Made by a program: the position numbers and the translations under genes
The notes under the pieces: model-generated
The model's database searches: none
What the model was told of the DNA's origin: nothing
The model's input: only the letters and a program-made list of their open reading frames with translations
Assembly (NCBI RefSeq): GCF_014042165.1
Contig: NZ_JACDZE010000001.1
Span: forward strand, 890,595 to 954,594
DNA length: 64,000 nucleotides
From: Moheibacter lacus
Lineage (GTDB): Bacteria; Bacteroidota; Bacteroidia; Flavobacteriales; Weeksellaceae
Reading direction: 5' to 3'
In this document: one piece after another, positions 1 through 20,444 of the stretch
Position numbering within the stretch: position 1 is the first letter of the stretch
Layout: each line of letters opens with the position of its first letter

Positions 1-359
1 TTCTCGAAATCTTTTTCGGAAAAAGATTCGCCCATAAAATCTACGTCATAATAAAATCCATTTTCGATTGCCGGACCGATGGTCAATTTGGCATTTGGAT
101 AAAATTCCATGATCGCTTGCGCCAATAGGTGAGCAGACGAATGCCAAAATGCTTTTTTCCCTAAATCATCATTCCACGTCAACAACTGAACGGTAGCGTC
201 TTCGGTAATCGTGGTGGTGGTTTCCACCTGATTGCCGTTAACTACTGCGGATATGACATTTCGCGCCAATCCTTCGCTTATGCTCAGTGCAATATCCATC
301 GGCGTTACGCCGCTTTCATATTGCCTGATGCTCCCGTCCGGAAGTGTAATGTTGATCAT
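1..359 (-). CDS. thrS: Threonine--tRNA ligase, N-terminal part (cut by window edge)
   Basis: Cytoplasmic enzyme that charges tRNA-Thr. Only the first 119 codons are in the window; the rest lies beyond base 1. The visible part starts with a TGS domain ([10 protein letters not shown], roughly residues 1-60). It continues into the editing domain, where H73-x-x-x-H77 in an [11 protein letters not shown] motif gives two of the zinc/editing residues, followed by the [11 protein letters not shown] segment typical of ThrS. The ATG at 359 is the natural start because the TGS domain begins directly there. The gene is transcribed away from the CoA-transferase at 456, so the 96-bp gap between them carries divergent promoters. 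Family assignment is firm from motifs; the catalytic core cannot be seen here. Confidence 0.95.
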
Positions 360-19485: not shown

Positions 19486-19578
19486 TTTAGAACGCTTTAA
19501 CTTAATTAAAGTTATTGCTATTCTTTTTGCTAAAACAAAATTTTCGTAAGAACCATCGCAACAAATAAACTAATTAGT

Positions 19579-19586
19579 TAACTTTG
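19579..19586 (+). promoter_or_regulatory. -7 element (TAACTTTG) of the toxin-antitoxin operon
   Basis: Perfect TAnnTTTG match, 4 nt before the GTG start at 19591; supports a leaderless toxin message and fixes the start codon. Confidence 0.5.
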
Positions 19587-19590
19587 TGGT

Positions 19591-19929
19591 GTGATTAGAA
19601 CGATTGTTTTATATGAAGATCATTTTCTAAAGTTTCATAAAGACCAAGAATTAACGGTTCAAGAAAAAATTGAATACGTTTTGGATATGGTTCGATTTGA
19701 AAACCATGTGCCAAAGAGGTTTTTTAAGCGACTTGAAAATACAGATGGAATTTATGAAGTTCGAGTCATCACTAGCTTCAAAAGCATAAGAATTTTGTGT
19801 TTTTTGGATGATGGAAATTTGGTGGTTTTAATGAATTGTTTTCTCAAAAAAACACAAAAAACACCTAAAAAGGAAATTAACCTCGCTGAAAAATTAAAAA
19901 AAGAATATTTAAATAATAAAAATGTCTAA
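19591..19929 (+). CDS. HigB/Gp49-like type II toxin
   Basis: 112-residue protein of the phage Gp49-like / HigB branch of the RelE superfamily, which cleaves mRNA on the ribosome. Evidence: N-terminal IVLYEDHFLKFHKDQ, helix LTVQEKIEYVLDMV, then the strands YEVRVITSFKSIRILCFLDDGNLVVLMNCFLKKTQKTP, which is the typical RelE core with a basic K/R-rich end. It begins with GTG right after a -7 element. The toxin precedes the antitoxin, as in HigBA systems, and overlaps it by 8 bp. The antitoxin's helix-turn-helix domain would repress this promoter. Confidence 0.85.
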   Translation: MIRTIVLYEDHFLKFHKDQELTVQEKIEYVLDMVRFENHVPKRFFKRLENTDGIYEVRVITSFKSIRILCFLDDGNLVVLMNCFLKKTQKTPKKEINLAEKLKKEYLNNKNV

Positions 19930-20221
19930 AATGAACAGTATAACAAATTTTGAAGATCTTTTGATTGATAAATATGGAGAAAAGGGAACTCCAAACCGTG
20001 ATAAATTTGACGCAGATTCTCTTGCATTTCGATTGGGCATTATGTTGAAAGAGGCACGAAAAGAGGCAAATTTAACGCAAGAAGAATTGGCCGAAAAAAC
20101 TGGAACGAAGAAAAGTTATATTTCACGAATCGAAAGAGGATTGAGCGATATTCAAATCTCGACTTATTATAAATTGATTGAAATTGGATTGGGTAAAAGT
20201 TTAAATATTTCTATCCATTAA
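19922..20221 (+). CDS. HigA-like XRE-family antitoxin
   Basis: 99-residue antitoxin and autorepressor. The C-terminal half is an XRE helix-turn-helix (EARKEANLTQEELAEKTGTK, then SYISRIERGLSDIQISTYYKL). The N-terminal half, about 40 residues, is acidic and probably neutralises the toxin. An alternative start at the second methionine (19931) is possible, but the first gives the usual 8-bp overlap with the toxin gene. Expected to bind the short interval around 19560-19590. Confidence 0.87.
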   Translation: MSKMNSITNFEDLLIDKYGEKGTPNRDKFDADSLAFRLGIMLKEARKEANLTQEELAEKTGTKKSYISRIERGLSDIQISTYYKLIEIGLGKSLNISIH

Positions 20222-20249
20222 AAATTGAAATTGTATAAACACATTCGTT

Positions 20250-20444
20250 ATGAAACCAAAAAAACTAGAAACCATCACGGTCAGTATGCAGGAAATTTGG
20301 CAGCAAACTACGCCAAAAGTGCACAAGAGCAAGAAACATTACAGTCGTAAAGACAAACATAAAAAAAATCCGGATCGCCAAAATCCGGATTTTTTTTTAT
20401 CATTTTCATTCCGAAGCTTCGGAATCAAATTAACTCATTATTAA
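20250..20444 (+). CDS. Small basic protein whose frame runs through a terminator; candidate ArfA-like rescue factor
   Basis: 64-codon ORF; I do not recognise a named family. The N-terminal part ([19 protein letters not shown]) is followed by a basic tail, K26-SKK-H30-Y31-S-R33-K34-D-K36-H37-K-K. The Y-x-R-K-x-K-H pattern matches the tail of E. coli ArfA (SYMRKGKH), which places itself in the empty mRNA channel of stalled ribosomes. Codons 38-50 form the stem-loop and U-tract of a strong intrinsic terminator (20361-20398) and the stop is only at 20442-20444. Most transcripts should therefore end without a stop codon near codon 49, giving a tmRNA-tagged protein while tmRNA works and a stable product when it fails. 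The codons after the terminator (LSFSF...) look unconstrained. Coding status is inferred. Confidence 0.5.
20361..20398. terminator. Bidirectional intrinsic terminator inside the small basic ORF
   Basis: Stem of 15 bp: seven A plus ATCCGGAT (20361-20375) pairs with ATCCGGAT plus seven T (20383-20397); the loop is CGCCAAA. An eight-T tract follows on the plus strand and an A-tract gives the same on the minus strand, so it serves both the small ORF and alaS, whose stop is at 20441. Confidence 0.85.
20408..20425. repeat. Perfect 18-bp palindrome downstream of alaS
   Basis: ATTCCGAAGCTTCGGAAT lies between the alaS stop and the shared terminator. On the alaS mRNA it can form a short hairpin just after the stop codon, upstream of the terminator. 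Confidence 0.5.

Follow-up and report, generated by a model that had tools for sequence, protein, structure and literature searches.

ArfA and BrfA, two ribosome rescue factors already described, are produced from RNAs that are ended or cut inside the reading frame, and a conserved KH in these proteins contacts the mRNA channel, as set out in a review (PMC8012679). The same review describes a stem-loop within the reading frame of E. coli arfA that yields a non-stop mRNA, and it allows that there may be more small rescue factors, hard to find by sequence. A survey of 15,259 genomes reports arfA in 0 of 1,956 FCB-group genomes (a group that includes Bacteroidota) and arfB in 1,426 (PMC11633108). 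ArfA has been annotated in phages, according to the papers on pelagiphage HTVC027P (gp30; PMC12753301) and Citromicrobium phage RXM (g10; PMC8953757); phage-borne ArfA as such is therefore not new.

Here we describe a small basic ORF of Moheibacter lacus that was singled out in a first-pass annotation as a candidate ArfA-like, tmRNA-controlled rescue factor with a terminator inside its coding frame. The ORF was analysed within the window, by which we mean the whole 64,000-nucleotide stretch of DNA under study.

A mainly viral family of small basic proteins

The ORF begins 28 nt downstream of an antitoxin gene, which itself follows a toxin gene (Table 1), and its stop codon overlaps that of alaS on the opposite strand. 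In another genome of the genus (G005), the ATPase gene of the left flank and the alaS gene of the right flank are directly adjacent and the intervening stretch is absent. Toxin, antitoxin, ORF and hairpin therefore look like one insertion, with a deletion in G005 as the alternative. The left neighbours differ in the two other genomes of the genus with enough flank (G001 and G004), and two more genomes are cut short. The host genome encodes tmRNA and two PF00472 proteins, by sequence RF1 and RF2-like; no third PF00472 protein was found in it, and that search thus gave no ArfB-like protein.

Table 1 Coordinates and extents of the features at the locus and in related phages
Feature	Position in window	Strand	Remarks
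Apparent insertion (toxin, antitoxin, ORF, hairpin)	19486..20440	+	Borders approximate
Gp49-type (RelE/HigB-like) toxin gene, PF05973	19591..19929	+	E 7.1e-17
HTH antitoxin gene, PF01381	19922..20221	+	E 1e-14
Small basic ORF, 64 codons	20250..20444	+	ATG start, 64 aa, stop 20442-20444
Conserved core, residues 13-37, MQEIW...VxKxKKxYxRKxKH	20286..20360	+	Alignment A2
Part aligning with the ArfA tail, residues about 21-40			PDB profile search
In-frame terminator-like hairpin	20361..20397	+	15 pairs, 7-nt loop
T tract inside the ORF frame	20390..20398	+	Nine T's
Frame 3' of the T tract	20399..20441	+	No alignment to relatives, whose ends differ
Loci with the GTACCGGCCCGTCTACTCTTCCGAC element			L143, L155-L159, L161, L164-L166, L168, L175, L177, L178, L182, L238

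An open frame says little about coding here: at the base composition of the window, the chance of meeting no stop is ~0.40 over 13 random codons and ~0.14 over 28, and a missing stop by itself is weak evidence. We call the ORF coding because of its homologues, not because its frame is open. A 37-row alignment (A2) of 35 distinct viral-contig proteins, one protein from a metagenome-assembled genome (MAG) and the window protein revealed nine invariant columns. The ratio of mean pN to mean pS was 0.17 for members with the N-terminal motif QERW, 0.24 for those with QEIW and 0.32 for the others, and the window compared with the QEIW group gave a pN of 0.243 and a pS of 0.869, with pS near saturation in these comparisons. 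Judged from its homologues and these substitution patterns, the window ORF is a true conserved gene under purifying selection, and the homologues and the coding signature sought for the ORF have thus been found.

The family is mainly viral. With the window protein as query, 62 of 101 candidates on viral contigs were confirmed (up to 71% identical), as against one of 91 candidate stretches in the matching scan of genome contigs, which covered 84,980 species with one genome apiece. A profile search of viral contigs confirmed at least 61 loci among the best 600 candidates, and a QERW query confirmed 96 of 409 candidates, 80 of which were retained; the sets of 62, at least 61 and 80 loci overlap. 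Among 39 other related genomes there was one convincing match to the window protein (E 5.8e-5), a 43-aa protein with an ordinary stop that is the same MAG gene found in the 84,980-species scan. The five other genomes of the genus gave no match, two of them being only 76% and 81% complete, and sampling 395 genomes from the phylum, 296 from the family and 247 from the class yielded only weak further matches (best E 1.5e-4). The first-pass annotation had spoken of a flavobacterial gene, a description that is not supported: with no match in any of these five genus genomes, mostly viral relatives and a place in an apparent insertion, the gene does not resemble a housekeeping gene of flavobacteria. 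A plasmid origin was rejected, as 72,556 plasmid records held no match.

Neither the window protein nor the family consensus matched anything in a collection of annotated phages, where only four immuto records were recovered with a QERW protein as query. The cultured QERW member is KNV73_gp147, a 'hypothetical protein' of Flavobacterium phage vB_FspM_immuto_2-6A (NC_055915.1), whose host is Flavobacterium sp. LMO8. No tRNA or tmRNA was found near the family's phage genes in six loci. Weak matches to DUF7230 (PF23876) were seen in 32 of the 37 members (best E 2.5e-5), the window protein scoring 17.6-18.7 bits, under the curated cut-off of 27; matches to phrog_18092, phrog_6310 and phrog_2701 were seen in 34, 32 and 25 of the 37, respectively (best 3.6e-5). 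Four ORFs from phylum genomes (L083, L084, L088 and L090) have only a KKxYxRKxK-like basic tail in common with the family and end at ordinary stops, so a wider superfamily exceeds the set studied here. The weak chromosomal matches L085, L086, L087, L089 and L091 were left out as members, as were L231-L234, and L003-L010 were considered in part or not at all.

In-frame hairpins in the QERW branch and in the window

The annotated terminator logic (i.e., a hairpin that would end the RNA before the stop codon) was compared across 138 distinct non-window sequences, sorted by N-terminal motif into 27 QERW, 60 QEIW (45 of them MQEIW) and 51 others. Identical 78-nt stretches were merged and loci re-fetched from the same contigs were counted once; L147, which is missing the motif, was excluded, and L140, a diverged long ORF with no hairpin, was kept in the QERW count. 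In all 60 QEIW sequences the stop follows the YxRKxK motif by 9-36 nt (9-39 nt across QEIW and the others), as opposed to 36 to 309 nt in the 27 QERW sequences. A terminator-like hairpin lies wholly before the stop in 21/27 QERW, 0/60 QEIW and 0/51 other sequences. As background, 18 of 1,999 ORFs neighbouring the gene at these loci had such a hairpin, at least two of the 18 being family members; the choice of these ORFs was greedy, with a minimum of 60 aa that most family members do not reach, and 15 of the 18 cases were itemised. Folding gave z-scores below -2, relative to mononucleotide shuffles, for 26/27 QERW, 6/60 QEIW and 5/51 other sequences.

Six of the 27 QERW sequences have no strict in-frame terminator-like site, mostly owing to a weak T tract. 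In four loci (L159, L163, L164 and L169) the stem is kept and the T tract is poor, which makes cutting by RNase III as possible as termination. RNase III cutting has been reported for E. coli arfA.

The arms of the QERW hairpin co-vary. Among 25 sequences there are 13 distinct arm pairs, 95.6% paired, compared with a mean of 84.7% and a maximum of 94.5% in shuffles; anchoring of the arms was manual, which biases the result towards pairing, and L140 and L176 were left out. In 2,000 shuffles of the arms, changes on both sides of a pair averaged 3.1 and never exceeded 11, whereas 12 were observed; the 11 further pair types fall within the shuffled range (mean 8.2, maximum 12). Relatedness among the QERW phages means that these counts are not independent. 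A MAFFT DNA alignment (A4) was dropped for this purpose because loop lengths shift the stems out of register. By these comparisons, the in-frame hairpin is conserved with co-varying arms in the QERW branch and is not family-wide. The in-frame hairpin of the first-pass annotation thus holds for one branch and not as a general rule, since the stop comes first in all 60 sequences of the window's own subgroup and in 111 of 138 overall. A non-stop gene architecture is well supported for the QERW phages, and control by tmRNA is our proposal for what it does.

Three non-QERW sequences (L134, L183 and L204) carry a stop codon within the predicted hairpin and are possibly intermediates between stop-first and non-stop forms. 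Separately, an element (GTACCGGCCCGTCTACTCTTCCGAC...) is conserved immediately 3' of the gene at 16 immuto-like phage loci (Table 1), some from the same contig or phage; six places in the immuto records match a 12-kb query, so this element may be repeated. Upstream of the gene, L155, L106 and L165 have TTCTTATCTTTAGGTAT-like sequences, which we take to resemble Bacteroidota -7 promoter elements.

In the window, the frame is open through the hairpin and T tract, as annotated, and the stop lies downstream of both. Terminator-like hairpins precede their own stop in two of 59 window ORFs (>=60 aa, greedy choice), and of those two the ORF described here has by far the longer stem. The 45 nt 3' of YxRKxK fold at -16.5 kcal/mol (z -7.5 against mononucleotide shuffles), to which only L169 is comparable (-17.7 kcal/mol, z -7.0). 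From the hairpin and T tract, the RNA 3' end is predicted to fall within the T tract, upstream of any stop codon, and the product of such an mRNA would end at about residue 47-49. On the minus strand the same stem is also terminator-like, and alaS ends convergently at 20441. A perfect palindrome (TTCCGAAGCTTCGGAA) occupies positions 20409-20424, past the T tract and short of the alaS stop; it may be another terminator of alaS or a scar left by an insertion.

The window copy is of the QEIW type, in which no other member has an in-frame hairpin, and its non-stop arrangement appears to be an isolated case because all 60 relatives of its own subgroup stop first. A tree built on 34 columns is weakly resolved and leaves the window unplaced; on it, three changes are required to explain the non-stop state, and starred branches force at least two of them. 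Every QERW row but L140 was labelled non-stop for this count, weak T tracts included. Taken with the QEIW stops, the tree leaves the window copy as either an independent second non-stop origin or a captured gene minus its stop. In the latter case, a captured phage gene would have lost its stop by drift upstream of an ordinary terminator common to alaS, and the in-frame position of the hairpin would be meaningless. The stop-first state of the whole subgroup agrees with such a history, as do the 13 of those 60 relatives with a terminator-like hairpin after the stop, the ease with which 13 codons stay open by chance and the ability of a bidirectional hairpin to serve alaS. Against such a history stand an intact coding core, a hairpin that ranks with the most stable in the whole set and the conservation of this arrangement among QERW sequences. 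We regard loss of the stop by drift as a possible, if doubtful, account of this copy. We favour an independent non-stop origin because the hairpin is very stable and the core intact, and our tmRNA-gated reading of the window gene is tentative.

Similarity to ArfA and the proposed function

The basic tail of the protein had been likened to that of E. coli ArfA on the strength of the pattern Y-x-R-K-x-K-H. Residues 31-37 of the window protein read YSRKDKH, and profile searches point the same way. The profile of the 37 members in A2 returned six matches up to E 10 from 177,635 distinct PDB sequences, and all six were versions of E. coli ArfA (E 0.093-0.4). With a profile that includes the QERW branch (A6), ArfA versions were the top six of eight matches (E 0.075-0.27), the remaining two being unrelated proteins (E 0.81 and 0.9). 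ArfA E-values of ~0.1 are not significant singly. When ArfA was searched together with 100,000 shuffles, it ranked first of the 89,002 sequences reported, with 14.4 bits against 12.8 for the best shuffle. The aligned stretch covers ~20 residues, RxxVxKNKK-xYxRKxKH, within ArfA chain residues 25-50, with three residues at the hyphen in ArfA only.

Beyond this tail, the protein shares little with ArfA, as anticipated. None of the 37 members matched the Pfam ArfA family (PF03889) at E up to 10, in a search whose filters drop most matches above 0.1, and the N-terminal half of ArfA, with its DPLF-type segment, found no alignable counterpart in the family. Profile-profile comparison with a four-row ArfA alignment gave a probability of 2% and an E of 0.024. 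By sequence, then, the family tail resembles the mRNA-channel tail of ArfA over ~20 basic residues. Because the E-values are ~0.1, the profile-profile probability is 2% and the Pfam family is unmatched, we say only that the family may work like ArfA and do not class it as ArfA.

We propose that the family is an ArfA-like rescue factor whose gene, in the QERW branch and the window copy, is non-stop and tmRNA-gated. We judge this somewhat better than an even bet, a grade that refers to the family being such a rescue factor and with which drift in the window copy alone is compatible. The product would be a protein of ~40-50 residues. Where a ribosome has stalled at the end of an mRNA, its K/R-rich tail (KxKKxYxRKxKHK) would occupy the vacant mRNA entry channel, and its short N-terminal part (TxQEIW or TxQERW) would recruit a release factor, RF2 being the likeliest. 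For the window and the QERW branch, we propose that transcription ends, or that the RNA is cut, at the hairpin within the reading frame. Ribosomes would run to the end of this stop-less mRNA and stall, and tmRNA would tag the product for destruction. When trans-translation is overwhelmed or inhibited, the small protein would instead be released and accumulate, its tail would enter empty mRNA channels and a release factor would then be brought in.

A competing explanation is that these phage proteins bind ribosomes or RNA but have no part in rescue (e.g., they redirect or slow host translation), and that the QERW hairpin limits the protein for another reason. Consistent with this, 111 of the 138 sequences stop soon after the motif, so that tmRNA gating is not tied to function; the ArfA likeness is restricted to the basic tail, and no function has been assigned to the three phage families that most members match. 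Yet the tail match preserves order and spacing and singles out ArfA from the whole PDB set, and a non-stop mRNA is a known mark of ArfA and BrfA in the review cited above (PMC8012679). We consider a role outside rescue unlikely.

The neighbouring genes offer another interpretation, in which the ORF is the third part of a toxin-antitoxin cassette and clears ribosomes from mRNAs cut by the RelE/HigB-like toxin. The close spacing of the ORF to the antitoxin gene within one apparent insertion would fit such a role, and the only other close bacterial homologue (L002/L011) adjoins a ParE-type toxin gene. However, the toxin gene in L002 is oppositely oriented, and a motif scan beside 29 other antitoxin loci, a few of which end early at contig ends, found no such ORF at any of them, including one 90% identical. 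The pairing of ORF and antitoxin is therefore not general, and an accessory gene of the toxin-antitoxin system is disfavoured and, in our estimation, quite improbable. Finally, a chance ORF across a bidirectional terminator, to which the easily opened frame would lend itself, is ruled out by dozens of viral homologues of up to 71% identity, the invariant columns and a pN far below pS, and we give it practically no credence.

A broader version of our proposal is that a widespread family of small genes in Bacteroidota phages is an unrecognised rescue factor, that one branch, including a cultured Immutovirus, has no usable stop and so yields the factor only under tmRNA overload in infection (e.g., phage- or defence-driven mRNA cleavage), that ArfA-less bacteria captured such genes and that at least one copy gained the gate on its own. 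We advance this combination tentatively, at a little short of even chances. If true, a tmRNA-gated phage factor would turn overload of trans-translation into a signal that can be read during infection, and non-stop control would have arisen again in viruses. The cultured pair of immuto_2-6A and Flavobacterium sp. LMO8 makes the proposal testable.

Comparison with described rescue factors

Our search of the open-access literature found no paper on the family, on non-stop control in phages or on DUF7230. The genes of known phages also hold closer relatives of ArfA. In Salmonella phage Arash (L235, 1917-2141), an ArfA-like gene is annotated 'ribosomal protein L2', and its product is 63% identical to E. 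coli ArfA over residues 4-41. In Pseudomonas phage pf16 (L236, ~1986-2135), an ArfA-like frame is unannotated on its own strand and is overlapped by an antisense hypothetical gene. An ArfA-like frame in Pseudomonas phage Y3 (L237, 2007-2156; record UNVERIFIED) contains a strong GC-rich hairpin before its stop, perhaps a sign that a closer relative of ArfA is also under non-stop control.

DUF7230, phrog_18092, phrog_6310 and phrog_2701 resemble the family in being short with a matching basic tail, and they have no assigned function. ArfT of Francisella is likewise small (~40 aa) and charged and recruits release factors, according to two papers (PMC8012679, PMC6514570); as described there, it differs in working with both RF1 and RF2 and in its charged helix, which is often repeated. 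BrfA of Bacillus is similar in having a Rho-independent terminator before the stop and a KH-containing tail that enters the mRNA channel, and differs in being described as likely limited to Bacillus, all according to the same review (PMC8012679); the BrfA structure named there (6SZS) was absent from the PDB matches of A2 and A6 up to E 10. Compared with E. coli ArfA (PF03889), the family tail is three residues shorter between KK and Y, the N-terminal part is TxQE(I/R)W in a protein of ~40 aa where ArfA has its DPLF-type segment, and most members stop normally. What the family has in common with ArfA is small size, and its tail resembles that of ArfA in having VxKNKK..xYxRKxKH in the same order.
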